Below are positions 40,656 through 54,372 of a stretch of 64,000 bases of DNA, piece by piece (position 1 is the first letter of the stretch; every line of letters starts with the position of its first letter). Source of the DNA: Bradyrhizobium paxllaeri (GTDB taxonomy: Bacteria > Pseudomonadota > Alphaproteobacteria > Rhizobiales > Xanthobacteraceae); assembly GCF_001693515.2 (NCBI RefSeq), contig NZ_CP042968.1, positions 8,216,501-8,280,500 of the forward strand. The letters are read 5' to 3'. The notes beneath the pieces are model-generated. The model searched no databases, had not been told where the DNA came from, and was given only the letters and a program-made list of their open reading frames with translations. The position numbers were made by a program, and so were the translations under genes.

Positions 40656-40750
40656 CGTAGGGTGGGCAAAGGCGCGCTGGCGCCGTGCCCACCATCTATC
40701 CACTTGCGATGTCCTGAATGGTGGGCACGCTGCGCTTTGCCCACCCTACG
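40656..40750. repeat. Dispersed palindrome, family C (CGTAGGGTGGGCAAAG), intact copy
   Basis: CGTAGGGTGGGCAAAG at the left is mirrored by CTTTGCCCACCCTACG at the right, with inner arms GTGCCCACCAT / ATGGTGGGCAC. The second copy (51289) is interrupted by the insertion sequence, so this one shows the empty target. Confidence 0.85.
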
Positions 40751-49683: not shown

Positions 49684-51276
49684 ATGACCGATACGACCCG
49701 CCGCGTAACCCGCGCTCTGTTATCCGTTTCCGACAAGACCGGCCTGATCGAATTCGCCAAGGCGCTCGCAGGCCATGGCGTCGAGCTCGTCTCTACCGGC
49801 GGCACCGCCAAGGCGATTGCCGCGGCGGGGTTGAAGGTCAAGGACGTCTCGGAGCTCACCGGCTTCCCTGAAATGATGGACGGCCGGGTCAAGACGCTTC
49901 ATCCGAAGGTGCATGGCGGCCTGCTCGCGATCCGCGACAACAAGGAACATGCCGAGGCGATGACGTCGCACGGCATCGCGCCGATCGATCTGCTCGTCGT
50001 CAACCTTTACCCGTTCGAGGCCACCGTCGACAAAGGCGCAGGATACGAGGACTGCATCGAGAACATCGACATTGGCGGCCCCGCGATGATCCGCGCGGCG
50101 GCCAAGAACCACGACGATGTCGCCGTAATCGTCGAGGCGCAGGATTATCAGGCCGTGCTCGACGAGCTTGCCGCCAACAAGGGCGCAACGACGCTATCGC
50201 TGCGCCGCCGCCTCGCCGCCAAGGCCTATGCCCGTACCGCCGCCTATGACGCCGCGATCTCCAACTGGTTCGCTGCCCAGCTCAAGGACAACGCGCCCGA
50301 TTTCCGCGCCGTCGGCGGCAGGCTGATCCAGTCGCTGCGCTACGGCGAGAATCCGCACCAGACCGCGGCCTTCTATGCAACGCCCGACAAGCGGCCCGGC
50401 GTTTCCACCGCGCGGCAATTGCAGGGCAAGGAACTGTCCTACAACAACATCAACGACACCGATGCGGCCTATGAATGCATCGGCGAGTTCGATCCGAAGC
50501 GCACGGCGGCCTGCGTGATCGTCAAACACGCCAATCCGTGCGGCGTTGCGGAGGGACCCGATCTCGTCACGGCCTATCGCCGCGCGCTCGCCTGCGACTC
50601 GACTTCGGCCTTTGGCGGCATCATCGCGGTCAACCGTACGCTCGATGCGGAAGCCGCGCGCGCCATCATCGGCATCTTCACCGAAGTGATCATCGCGCCC
50701 GACGCCACCGAGGAGGCGATCGCGATCATCGGCGGCAAGAAGAATTTGCGGTTGCTGCTCGCGGGCGGCCTGCCCGACCCGCGCACGATAGGCCTGACCG
50801 CCAAGACGGTCGCCGGCGGCCTTCTGGTGCAGAGCCGCGACAATGCCGTGGTCGAAGACATGGACATCAAGGTCGCGACCAAGCGCGCGCCGACCGACGC
50901 CGAGATGCGCGATCTCAAATTCGCCTTCCGCGTCGCCAAGCACGTCAAGTCGAACACGATCATCTATGCCAAGGATCTCGCCACCGTCGGCATCGGCGCC
51001 GGCCAGATGAGCCGGGTCGACTCCGCGCGTATCGCCGCCCGCAAGGCGCTGGATGCCGCAACCGAACTCAACCTCGCCGAGCCGCTGACCAAGGGCTCCG
51101 TCGTCGCATCCGACGCCTTCTTCCCCTTCGCCGACGGCATGCTGGCCTGCATCGAGGCCGGCGCAACGGCGGTGATCCAGCCCGGCGGCTCGATGCGCGA
51201 CGAGGAAGTGATCAAGGCCGCCGACGACCACGGCATCGCCATGGTGTTCACGGGCACCAGGCATTTCAGGCATTGA
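49684..51276 (+). CDS. purH: Bifunctional AICAR transformylase / IMP cyclohydrolase
   Basis: 530 residues from the ATG at 49684; AAAGGA lies 8 bp upstream, and the TTG two codons earlier is not needed. The N-terminal MGS-like cyclohydrolase domain starts [19 protein letters not shown] and has [20 protein letters not shown]. The AICAR transformylase domain has the catalytic KHANPCGVA and [11 protein letters not shown], and ends [16 protein letters not shown]. It does the last two steps of IMP synthesis. Downstream is a repeat and then the insertion sequence. Confidence 0.97.
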
Positions 51277-51288
51277 CCCCCGTCGAAT

Positions 51289-51380
51289 CGTAGGGTGGGC
51301 AAAGGAGCGCTAGCGACGTGCCCACCATCCATCGCCGATTACGCTGCCTGATGGTGGGCACGCTGCGCTTTGCCCACCCT
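51289..51380. repeat. Family C palindrome interrupted by the insertion sequence
   Basis: CGTAGGGTGGGCAAAG at the left; the right arm CTTTGCCCACCCT stops at 51380. The missing ACG resumes at 52962, directly after the insertion sequence. Joining 51380 to 52962 restores the palindrome seen intact at 40656-40750. Confidence 0.85.
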
Positions 51381-51383
51381 CAT

Positions 51384-51391
51384 ATGAGGCG
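51384..51391 (+). repeat. Subterminal inverted repeat of the IS (transposase-downstream end)
   Basis: ATGAGGCG followed by TTTTGAG. Partner at 52947-52954. Confidence 0.75.
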
Positions 51392-51535
51392 TTTTGAGTC
51401 AAGCATCCCGACAGGGCTTGGATGTGATTTTTACGTTCGGTGGAGCGGCGGCGCGCGGAGCCATGCGTAGCGCAGCGTGCCGCCGCGGTCGGTGCGCTCA
51501 GGGACTGGCTTCCGGCGATTTATGCAGTTGCTCAC

Positions 51536-51671
51536 TGCATCACCTCATATCCGGTCGGACCGCTGTGATCCGCACCCACATTCCGCATGCATGCGGCGAG
51601 GAAGCCACGAGGATGAGACCCATCTACGAAACAGCCTGTTTGCTGGCCCAAGGGTGGCACGGTCACCATCC
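51536..51671 (-). ncRNA. Candidate bridge RNA (seekRNA) of the IS110-family element: two-loop core
   Basis: Read on the minus strand, downstream of the transposase. First structure (51671 to 51611): stem GGATG-GT-GACC / GGTC-T-CATCC, around CCACCCT (51657-51651), an inner hairpin CAGC-AAACAG-GCTG, and CGTAG (51628-51624). CCACCCT equals the left target half including the CT core. TTTCGTAG pairs with the right target half CTACGGA, with one G-U. Second structure (51591 to 51536): stem TGCAT / ATGCA around GGAATGT (51584-51578), an inner hairpin CGGATC-ACAGC-GGTCCG, and ATATGAG (51550-51544). GGAAT matches one IS end and ATATGAG is complementary to CTCATAT at the other. This is the target-loop then donor-loop order of known bridge RNAs. 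Exact RNA ends are not determinable here. Confidence 0.75.
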
Positions 51672-51725
51672 ATCCCGCGCTGACCGCGGCAGATGCCGCG
51701 ACGCTGACGCGTTCGTTGAAAGTGG

Positions 51726-52886
51726 TTAGATCTTTACGGCCTTGAGCACCGCGCCTTCCGGCACGAGACCGGTCGTGAGGTAGCGCCACAGCGCCACCAT
51801 CAGCTTGCGCGCCAGGGCGACGATGGCGACGCGCTTGATGCGCTTGCCGGCATCGAGCGTGCGCTTGCGGTACTCCAAGGTCAGCTTGCTGTCCGGCTGA
51901 TGCCGCAGCCACAGCCAGGCCAGTTCGATCGCGGCACAGCGGGCGCGCGGGTTGCCCGCCTTGCTGATGCCCTGGTCGCGGTCGATGCCGCCGCTCCGCC
52001 ATGGACTGGGCGTCAGCCCGAAATAACTCCCGACCTCGCGGCGATTGCGGAAGTCCTTGTAGAACACCTCGCTGGTCAGCGTCGTCGCGAACGCCGGGCC
52101 GAGACATTTGAGCCGGCGCAGCAGTTCGCTGCGCCGGGTCATCTCGGCTTCCGCAGGCATTGGCTCCGCTGCGGCCGCCTCCTGCGCGAGCACGTCGAGC
52201 CGATCGCGCACCAGCATCAGCCGCGCGTGCTCGTGTCGGATCTCGCTCAGCATCCGCGGCGGCACCGCCTGGCCTTGCCAATCCCGCTGCGTTGCCAGCC
52301 AGCTCAGCCAGTCGCGCCGCCGCGGGTTCCCGACCGCCATGCCCCGCAGCCGCAGCAGTGCCTTGATCCGGTTGGTGTGAGCGGTTTGCTCCTTGATCAG
52401 CCGGTCGCGTTCGCGGCTGCCGCGGCGGGCGTCCTCCTGTTCGGCTGCAGGCACCCGGACGATCCGCACCACCCGCGGCTCGCCGCGCAGATACGCCATC
52501 AGCGTGCGCAGCATCCGCTCGCCATCGATCCGGTCGGTCTTCACCCGCCGCGCCCGCTGGTCCACCGCAATGCTGGCGGGATCAAACACGTAGTTCGTGA
52601 TGCCGGCCGCCAGCAGCAGCCGGTGCAGCCAGAACCCGTCGTAGCCCGCCTCGTAGCAGCTCGCCACCGCCGGAACGCCTCCCAGCGTTCGAGCCGCCCG
52701 CTCCCGAACCCGACCCACCAACGCCAACAGCTCGGCATGATCGCCACCCTCCAGCTTGTGGTGCGATATCTTGTCCTTGTCCGGGCTGTGCAGCGCGACC
52801 CGCCAGCTCCGCTGGCTCAGTTCGATTGCAACGAAAATTGTGCCAATATGGCCGGCGGTGGGCGTGGCTACGGTGGATGCTTGCAT
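51726..52886 (-). CDS. IS110-family transposase (DEDD recombinase)
   Basis: 386 residues from MQASTVATPT; a longer frame starts at 52946, at the edge of the element. The N-terminal RuvC-like domain should carry four acids: candidates E22 (VAIELS), E79 (CYEAGYDG), D118 and D121 (KTDRID). The first is Glu where most family members have Asp. A charged coiled-coil linker follows. The C-terminal transposase_20 domain has LGPAFATTLTSEVF, YFGLTPSPWRSGG with the candidate nucleophile Ser, and GISKAGNPRARCA. No frameshift is seen, so it may be active. Confidence 0.93.
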   Translation of the reverse strand: MQASTVATPTAGHIGTIFVAIELSQRSWRVALHSPDKDKISHHKLEGGDHAELLALVGRVRERAARTLGGVPAVASCYEAGYDGFWLHRLLLAAGITNYVFDPASIAVDQRARRVKTDRIDGERMLRTLMAYLRGEPRVVRIVRVPAAEQEDARRGSRERDRLIKEQTAHTNRIKALLRLRGMAVGNPRRRDWLSWLATQRDWQGQAVPPRMLSEIRHEHARLMLVRDRLDVLAQEAAAAEPMPAEAEMTRRSELLRRLKCLGPAFATTLTSEVFYKDFRNRREVGSYFGLTPSPWRSGGIDRDQGISKAGNPRARCAAIELAWLWLRHQPDSKLTLEYRKRTLDAGKRIKRVAIVALARKLMVALWRYLTTGLVPEGAVLKAVKI

Positions 52887-52946
52887 CTGACTCTCCGAGG
52901 GGTTCGAGTGTGGAAACCCAAACCTTATCGGAAAGGCCACGCTCAC

Positions 52947-52954
52947 CGCCTCAT
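52947..52954 (-). repeat. Subterminal inverted repeat of the IS (transposase-upstream end)
   Basis: ATGAGGCG on the minus strand followed by GTGAG. Partner at 51384-51391. Confidence 0.75.
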
Positions 52955-52986
52955 GGAATCTACGGATTCTCGTCTGATATACGCCG

Positions 52987-54372
52987 TCACTCCCTCACGC
53001 GCATCAAGAGCGCCAGCCCCGCGACGAAGAACACCACCAGCAGCGCCATGCCGGCCTTCTGGCTGACGGTGACTGCGGTGACCATGCCGATCAGGAGCGG
53101 ACCGATGAACGAGGTCACCTTGCCGGTCAGCGCGAACAGTCCAAAGTACTGCGCGATGCGGTCCTTTGGTGCAAGCCGGATCAGCAGCGTGCGCGACGCC
53201 GCCTGCAGCGGGCCGCCGGCCGCGCCAATGAGACATCCGAGCACGAGATAGGCGCGCTCGGCGGCGCCGGAGAACAGCGGTCCGCCCGGAACCGGCGGCG
53301 CGACTTTCACGAACAGAATCGAATCCTTGTCGACCAGCAGGATCGCGGTCAGCGCGAACAGCAGGATCAGCAGGCTGCCGGCAATGACGCGCTTGGGTCC
53401 CAGTCTGTCGTCGAGCTTGCCGCCGAGCCACGCGCCGAAGGTGCCGGCAATGGCGAGCAGAATTCCAAACGTGCCGATCTGGATCGTGTGCCAGCCGAAG
53501 GTACCGGCTGCATAAATGCCGCCGAAGGCGAACAGCGACACCAGCCCGTCGCTGTAGATCATGTTGGCGAGCAGGAATATCGCCAACGATCGCTGCTTCG
53601 GCAATTCGGCGAGCGTCCGCTTCAGCCCGCTCAATCCTTCGCGCGCCGCTTCGCGAATTGGACGCCTGGCCGGATAATCCGGCGTGAGCAGAAACATCGG
53701 GGTCACGAAGACGATGAACCAGATGCCGGTCAGCGGGCCCGTGATGCGATCACCCTGATGGGATATGTGATCGAGACCGAACAGCGGCGTCAGTCCGAAC
53801 AGGGTGCGCCCGGTTTCGGGGCTAGCGGCGAGGAAGCCGAGCACCAGGATGAGGCTGAGAATGCCGCCGATATAACCGGTCGCCCAGCCGGTGCCGGACA
53901 GCCGTCCGATCCTGTCAGGTGGCACCAGCGTCGGCATCATCGCGTTGTCGAAGACAGTGGCGAATTCAACGCCCACGGTTGCGATCGCATAGGCCAGCAA
54001 GAGCTGTGGGATGACGCTCGCATCGCCCGGCTTTCCGAACCACATCAGGAACGAGCCGATCACCAGCAGCGCGCCGAATCCGGCGATCCATGGCTTGCGG
54101 CGACCGCTGGCATCGGCAATCGCCCCCAGTACTGGCGACAGCAGCGCAATCATCAGGCCGGCAGCCGCGGTGGCAAATCCCCACAGGGCCTGCCCGTTCG
54201 CCGGATCCGGCGCCACGAAGTTCGCGAAATAGGGCGCAAATACAAAGGTCGTGATCAGCGTGAAGTACGGCTGGGCTGCCCAATCGAAGAAAATCCAGCT
54301 CACGACGGCGGCGCGACCCGGATATTCCTTTTGAATCTTGCCGCCCGTTGCCTCGGAAGCGATCACCGTCAT
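52987..54372 (-). CDS. MFS transporter, UMF1/Atg22-like
   Basis: 461 residues with about 12 membrane helices. The start VVSWIFFDWAAQPYFTLITTFVFAPYF is the hallmark of the UMF1 (Atg22-like) family, and GAIADASGRRKPW is the loop 2-3 MFS motif. Yeast Atg22 exports amino acids from the vacuole; bacterial members have no assigned substrate. The insertion sequence ends 25 bp after the stop codon and so does not disrupt the gene, but it may have separated it from its native terminator. Divergent from ggt. Confidence 0.88.
   Translation of the reverse strand: MTVIASEATGGKIQKEYPGRAAVVSWIFFDWAAQPYFTLITTFVFAPYFANFVAPDPANGQALWGFATAAAGLMIALLSPVLGAIADASGRRKPWIAGFGALLVIGSFLMWFGKPGDASVIPQLLLAYAIATVGVEFATVFDNAMMPTLVPPDRIGRLSGTGWATGYIGGILSLILVLGFLAASPETGRTLFGLTPLFGLDHISHQGDRITGPLTGIWFIVFVTPMFLLTPDYPARRPIREAAREGLSGLKRTLAELPKQRSLAIFLLANMIYSDGLVSLFAFGGIYAAGTFGWHTIQIGTFGILLAIAGTFGAWLGGKLDDRLGPKRVIAGSLLILLFALTAILLVDKDSILFVKVAPPVPGGPLFSGAAERAYLVLGCLIGAAGGPLQAASRTLLIRLAPKDRIAQYFGLFALTGKVTSFIGPLLIGMVTAVTVSQKAGMALLVVFFVAGLALLMRVRE

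Follow-up and report, generated by a model that had tools for sequence, protein, structure and literature searches.

The 64,000-nucleotide (nt) window of the Bradyrhizobium paxllaeri genome analysed here (contig NZ_CP042968.1, positions 8,216,501 to 8,280,500) carries on its minus strand an insertion sequence (IS) of the IS110 superfamily, the 3' non-coding end of which almost certainly encodes a bridge RNA, or seekRNA, that would act by the mechanism proposed below. The transposase open reading frame (51726..52946) specifies 406 amino acids (aa), with the RuvC-like domain PF01548 and Transposase_20 (PF02371) above their curated cut-offs and the NCBIfam IS110 model NF033542 also above cut-off; a near-invariant methionine at 52886 is the likely real start, which would give a protein of 386 aa. 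Flank comparison of 21 genomic copies places the whole IS at 51381..52961 (1581 bp, one copy of the core dinucleotide counted in). Reading the minus strand, which is the transposase strand, its ends consist of a 7-bp left extension, AGATTCC (52955-52961), and a 3-bp right extension, ATG (51381-51383), each adjoining a subterminal inverted repeat (sTIR) read from the sequence, ATGAGGCG on the left (52947..52954) and CGCCTCAT on the right (51384..51391), with the repeat ATGAGGCG perfect over 8 bp. On the plus strand, the core CT lies at the right junction (51379..51380) next to the target half GCCCACC (51372-51378), and again at the left junction (52960..52961) next to the target half ACGGATT (52962-52968). 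The occupied target reads ...GCCCACC-CT / CT-ACGGATT and the IS ends read GGAAT-CT and CT-CATATGAG, so that both the sequence and the comparison of copies agree with the target and joined ends described in the initial annotation of this DNA.

The 3' region of the IS was found in 21 copies in the host genome (one contig of 8,377,719 bases), and all 21 were examined with their flanks. On the transposase strand the copies have common junctions, with ...GTAG on the left, GGTGGGC on the right and AG as the core. GTAG is present in 20 of the 21 copies, the remaining copy having ATAG, and GGTGGGC likewise in 20, the remaining copy having an extra G. All 21 copies found occupy a single site, a repetitive extragenic palindrome (REP), two of them with a one-base variant, and the four strings discussed below as guides are identical in every copy.

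The predicted RNA extends over 51494..51680 of the minus strand, making it a long seekRNA, its predicted extent being bounded by an outer stem, P0, formed by GCGCGGGA (51673-51680) and TCCCTGAGCGC (51494-51504). The initial annotation was given for 51536-51671, and P0 extends beyond this interval. Within P0, a target-binding hairpin (51611..51671) is formed by stem P1, GGATGGTGACC (51661-51671) with GGTCTCATCC (51611-51620), and an upper stem (51633-51649), which flank an internal loop. The donor-binding domain (51507..51606) is a multiloop closed by stem P2, GGCTTCC (51600-51606) with GGAAGCC (51507-51513), and contains hairpins at 51583-51596 and 51522-51540 as well as an upper donor stem, GGGTGCGGATC / GGTCCGACC (51553..51577). 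Of the two tandem hairpins with internal loops proposed at the outset, the first corresponds to the target-binding hairpin, and the second is part of this multiloop, not a simple internal loop. Donor guides within a multiloop have been reported for many IS1111 bridge RNAs (PMC11208160). The four loop segments named in the initial annotation all lie at their given positions when the coordinates are checked in the window sequence. The first target guide, CCACCCT (51651..51657), pairs with AGGGTGG of the transposase strand, and the second, TTTCGTAG (51624..51631), has the sense of the transposase strand and pairs with the opposite strand at ...CGTAG. In the donor domain, the segment GGAATGT (51578-51584) includes the left donor guide GGAAT (51580..51584), which is complementary to the 5-nt left extension ATTCC, and the right donor guide ATATGAG (51544..51550) repeats the right IS end (51379-51385) letter for letter.

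The helices were tested without an alignment because MAFFT columns are offset within them. In this arm-swap test, the 5' arms of 17 loci were paired with their own or with foreign 3' arms, in windows chosen after the alignment had been inspected. Own arms pair better than swapped arms for P1 and P0 (each 0 of 100000 permutations), P2 (9 of 100000) and the upper donor stem (34 of 100000). Covariation in homologues, which had been put forward as a check on the two-loop structure, is thus found in both domains, and in the predicted RNA an outer stem therefore encloses two domains, the donor multiloop and a target hairpin bearing an internal loop. In narrower windows, P0 gave 19 of 50000 permutations and P2 gave no signal (7815 of 50000), the window in the latter case having cut the helix; the P2 result quoted above is that of the wide window. 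A possible switch, in which the 5' strand of P0 would pair proximally with the segment just after P1, was dropped in the absence of covariation (16057 of 50000).

If the loop segments are guides, then they should change with the target and with the IS ends. A search for the transposase across 195 genomes from the genus gave matches at E <= 1e-30 in 58, and 101 loci were collected in all, 21 of them own copies and 80 stretches from relatives. Among the 58 loci with at least 69 percent identity, a set that takes in the own copies, GTAG closes the left flank in 54 of the 56 for which a left end was found, GGTGG opens the right flank in 54 of the 55 for which a right end was found, and both motifs are present in 50 of 53. 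More distant clades have other targets and other loops. At locus L110, for example, the target GCGAAG/CAATCC is accompanied by the guides GGATTGC and AACGAAG, at L122 the target AAATTAG/GCCACT by AGTGGC and AAAATTAG, and at L140 the target GGCGGAAG/TTGTGGC by GCCACAAC and CGCGGAAG. Relatives at 65-74 percent aa identity have unrelated targets with matching loops. Loop 1, for which the initial annotation had suggested comparing homologues inserted elsewhere, is not kept in these relatives but altered to fit the new target.

For the target tests we used 16, later 13, representative loci that have both junctions and differ in their targets, the near-duplicates L106, L137 and L144 having been dropped. 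In several families the junction patterns were extended manually, the second of two anchor matches was picked by eye at L110, L140 and L143, and the anchor was relaxed for L136/L137. Pairing was scored over 7 non-core positions with G-U at half weight. The first guide pairs with its own target at 6.35 of the 7 positions, compared with 3.31 for foreign targets, and the second at 5.08 compared with 2.07; for neither guide did any of 200000 permutations reach the observed value. The own target ranks first, ties included, for 12 of 13 first guides and 9 of 13 second guides. These values include a third guide offset, allowed equally for own and foreign targets, which was added after L123 and L136 were seen to fit one base shorter. 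An earlier scoring with two offsets gave 5.41 against 3.04 and 4.81 against 2.15, again with 0 of 200000 permutations. L109, L115 and L146 stand outside these tests, as their right ends were not found. For L115 and L146, left flank and second guide agree when judged by eye, while the 3' region of L109 retains the donor part without a recognisable target loop, and this is probably a decayed element. The L136 and L137 transposases are 91 percent identical, and their first guides differ by one letter (GTTCGGC and GTCCGGC), with a difference also at the corresponding target letter (GCCGAAC and GCCGGAT).

The tests were repeated on held-out guides with a fixed rule based on anchors learned from the genus, which was drawn up later than the first set and applied a single time. 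The rule was applied to 79 of 80 loci from other records (L223 was left out) and resolved 22. Removal of L148, L149 and L162, taken to have been seen previously, left 19 loci with 12 distinct guides. Two of these come from Bradyrhizobium records (L213, L214) and ten from Mesorhizobium, Microvirga, a Novosphingobium bin, Rhizobium, Azospirillum, Sphingobium, Ruegeria and Sphingomonas; held-out locus L188 has a second guide in common with L123 of the first set. Own pairing was 6.04 for the first guide, compared with 3.21 for foreign targets, and 4.17 for the second, compared with 2.01, with 0 of 200000 permutations reaching either value. The own target ranked first for 10 of 12 first guides and 6 of 12 second guides. 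One further contig, with L151, is filed as a Nevskia metagenome bin and has a 73 percent identical transposase, which would reflect either transfer or an error in binning.

Both donor guides vary in step with the IS ends. In the listed loci that have a right end, the right donor guide copies that end, with four end types represented and one mismatch (L108). The left donor guide, positioned by eye from the alignment, tracks the 5-nt left extension: with 8 types of left end, its pairing was equalled in 12 of 40320 permutations. The core mismatch noted earlier in loop 2 is present, with GT against CT in the window copy, but it is not peculiar to this copy, as the left donor guide matches both core bases in 0 of 16 loci.

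Bases adjacent to the guides show a further relationship. In IS621, such bases re-pair after strand exchange (wild-type A81/U82 and G166/U167), and covariation at these handshake positions has been reported for IS110 orthologues (PMC11208158). In the element described here, the right donor guide is followed by GT (51542..51543), and the first of these bases pairs with the first target base in a handshake-like manner. Pairing between this donor-loop base, the first after the core, and the first target base holds for all 13 targets, three of which pair by G-U (140 of 200000 permutations), and for all 12 held-out guides (295 of 200000). With the two sets combined, it is found in 25 of 25 guide-target pairs with 0 of 200000 permutations, C-for-C and T-for-T changes included. 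The second donor-loop base after the core shows no pairing signal (197356 of 200000). In loop 1, the second target guide is followed by AT (51622..51623), candidate handshake bases that match the AT of the left IS end. The corresponding test (30957 and 67379 of 200000 permutations) is powerless because the left IS end hardly varies there. The finding extends handshake pairing to an IS1111-type RNA and yields a donor-loop rule.

Comparison of sequences establishes the anatomy and ends of the element, its single target, and the covariation of guides with targets, of guides with donor ends and of helix arms with each other. Several observations weigh against a bridge RNA. With guides placed freely in the 226-nt region, G-U at half weight and the AG sites of the window as the comparison, 363 of 3938 random AG sites equal or exceed the score of the real target (14 of 18), so that the window target alone does not stand out from chance. 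Single-sequence folds are not unusually stable compared with shuffled sequences (z of -0.28 and +0.90), no Rfam family matched 51000-53400 at E <= 1, and RNAalifold found almost no structure in a 30-row alignment, probably due to the offset of the helices within it. The rule failed to place 57 of the 79 held-out loci (right donor guide, end or anchor not found), and among those it placed, two stand out, L163 as a clear misfit (1.5 and 2.5 of 7) and L171 as a weak case (3.5 and 5.0). The opinion in the initial annotation that the four matches are hard to explain by chance does not survive these numbers where this one element's target loop is concerned, and the argument is weaker than first stated. 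Because the single-element match and fold stability are weak, the case for a bridge RNA rests on comparison across relatives.

The count of random AG sites and the fold z-scores would favour four chance matches in a GC-rich stretch, with REP preference set by the protein alone. However, the own guide-target pairing is unreached in every permutation for both the 13 targets and the 12 held-out guides, and chance would not give relatives with unrelated targets matching loops, making this explanation very improbable. We also consider it very unlikely that this conserved 3' RNA serves to regulate expression of the transposase, with the guide-like segments being secondary. Such small RNAs have been reported for ISPpu9 (PMC8450116), and the RNA adjoins the gene and is structured, as the arm-swap covariation indicates, but a regulatory function would explain neither why loop 1 changes with the insertion site nor why the donor guides change with the IS ends. 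Copying of loop 1 from flanking DNA after insertion would produce guide-target covariation equally well, but it is extremely unlikely given that all 21 own copies have the same loop strings at the same short site with unrelated flanks, and that the guides match the target halves on either side of the core in opposite strand sense, a pattern not expected from copying. The covariation instead supports the four segments as guides, as first proposed.

For the bridge RNA, the following mechanism is considered very probable. By analogy with IS621 and ISEc11, the 3' non-coding region would be co-transcribed with the transposase gene and then processed into the bridge RNA. One loop would read both halves of the genomic target, with the core AG on the transposase strand and CT on the other, and the second, multiloop domain would read the two abutted IS ends of the circular form. 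A RuvC/Tnp recombinase tetramer with the RNA could then join circle and target at their common dinucleotide without target duplication, with ribonucleoprotein assembly and strand exchange modelled on the same two elements. The element would in this way be aimed at the GTAG-tagged REP palindrome GTAG/GGTGGGC.

The anatomy is that of the IS1111 group, to which the initial annotation had assigned the element. The longer non-coding region lies downstream of the transposase gene, the sTIRs have 7-bp left and 3-bp right extensions, and CCACCCT (complementary to the transposase strand) lies 5' of TTTCGTAG (complementary to the other strand), in the IS1111 guide order (PMC11187229). The loop guides follow target and donor, as in a bridge RNA or seekRNA. 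The sTIRs of IS1111 elements are usually 11-13 bp by one account (PMC11187229) and 7-17 bp by another (PMC11208160), and the 8-bp repeat is short by the first measure and within the range of the second. The window protein has the GL-P----S(T)G motif typical of IS1111 as GLTPSPWRSG; the pattern G--P----[ST][GA] is present in 17 of 32 proteins compared and absent from 15 relatives. The transposase length and the first catalytic aspartate do not agree with the group. IS1111 transposases have 330-350 aa, compared with 406 aa for the ORF here or 386 aa from the likely start, and the frames of the other 31 proteins, measured up to the left end with true starts unset, have 389-428 aa, barring the broken L115. 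The evidence supports an element that works like an IS1111-type bridge RNA or seekRNA system, and it is not filed as a strict IS1111 member because the DEDD letter and transposase length differ.

Among known systems, ISPa11 of Pseudomonas aeruginosa, an IS1111 element, resembles the window element in having its RNA in the 3' non-coding region, in guide order, in sTIRs and in a REP target (PMC11187229). Its seekRNA of 96 nt is described there, and its bridge RNA is one of six drawn in PMC11208160. It differs in its REP and its host, and the window element has glutamate at the first catalytic position. ISEc11 and ISXne4, with transposases 72 percent identical, are likewise naturally re-aimed through changed loop letters. 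They are the one such pair described on the IS1111 side in PMC11187229, compared with the natural guide-target pairs added here, 13 from one genus and 12 held-out. IS621 and ISCro4 (PMC11208160, PMC11208158; PDB 8wt6, 9t56) also have target and donor loops that both contain the core, and fold alignment indicates the same RuvC, coiled-coil and Tnp fold. The IS621 handshake letters are the same as the AT and GT found here. In IS621-type elements of the IS110 group, for which guide-target covariation has been published for 5,511 pairs (PMC11208160), the RNA instead lies 5' of the gene and the guides come in the opposite order with respect to it. ISRel9 and ISMno20, names taken from plasmid annotation, are relatives compared by protein only (42.8 percent identity over 95 percent of the protein and 46.7 percent over 83 percent, respectively).

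Catalytic residue 11 of IS621 is aspartate, whereas the window clade has glutamate at this position. The first aspartate of the DEDD tetrad is replaced by glutamate in 17 of 17 relatives, all of which have PF01548 and PF02371 listed at E <= 0.001, and in 78 of 79 further loci, the exception being L203 with aspartate. E103, D142, D145 and Ser-Gly 322-323 are invariant across the 17-protein alignment. The first-position glutamate (Glu 46 in the same numbering) aligns opposite the aspartate of GIDVSK in ISCro4, a match whose domain score (5.4 bits) is weak. The fold alignment begins at the offset (39 to 4) expected from this correspondence. A single-protein search of solved structures returned just two chance-level matches (E about 0.75), and a profile search recovered ISCro4 and IS621. 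Mutation of Asp11 abolishes IS621 recombination (PMC11208158), yet the Glu-first active site turns up here in an evidently mobile clade. In literature searches and term look-ups in selected papers, we found no report of a Glu-first tetrad or of handshake covariation in IS1111-type RNAs. The RNA mechanism itself is already known, and what is new is the subgroup with a Glu-first tetrad and the donor-loop handshake rule. We think it rather likely that a large alphaproteobacterial clade of bridge-RNA recombinases uses an E-E-D-D active site, that the donor-loop handshake base must match the first target base, and that subclades swap loop 1 to follow different REP families. If so, then the target history of the clade can be read as a record of natural reprogramming. 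This element, of IS1111-type anatomy, shows that an address code can be both read and checked with genomes as the only source.

REPs have long been known as targets of IS110-family elements (PMC1525189), and GTAG-tagged REPs have been reported for Bradyrhizobium (PMC3733652). The target of the IS fits these. The pattern GTAGGGTGGGC occurs 244 times in the host genome, compared with 5 occurrences of the reversed pattern, and the first 100 places listed include many head-to-head pairs. The window contains two such pairs, one intact (40657-40749) and one split by the IS (51290-51380), the intact second arm of which lies at 51290..51300 on the plus strand. Related clades aim at two further palindromic repeats. 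The clade of L110, L124 and L134 is aimed at a CGAAG/CAATCC repeat with 69, 203, 212 and 138 sites in four genomes, compared with 0 for the control. The clade of L104-L107 is aimed at GTAG/CCCG; three genomes have 7, 157 and 58 occurrences of CGTAGCCCGGRTG, compared with 0 or 1.

Near the right end of the IS lies a box resembling a -35 element, TTGACTC (51396..51402, minus strand). In the circular form it would point towards the left end, and it is likely to be the -35 box of a promoter formed in the circle, with a -10 box that looks weak. When right ends are compared by eye, a TTGAC box is found at a comparable distance in several relatives. A second IS110-like gene lies ~2 kb from one IS copy (L014, host genome 7734856-7735077).
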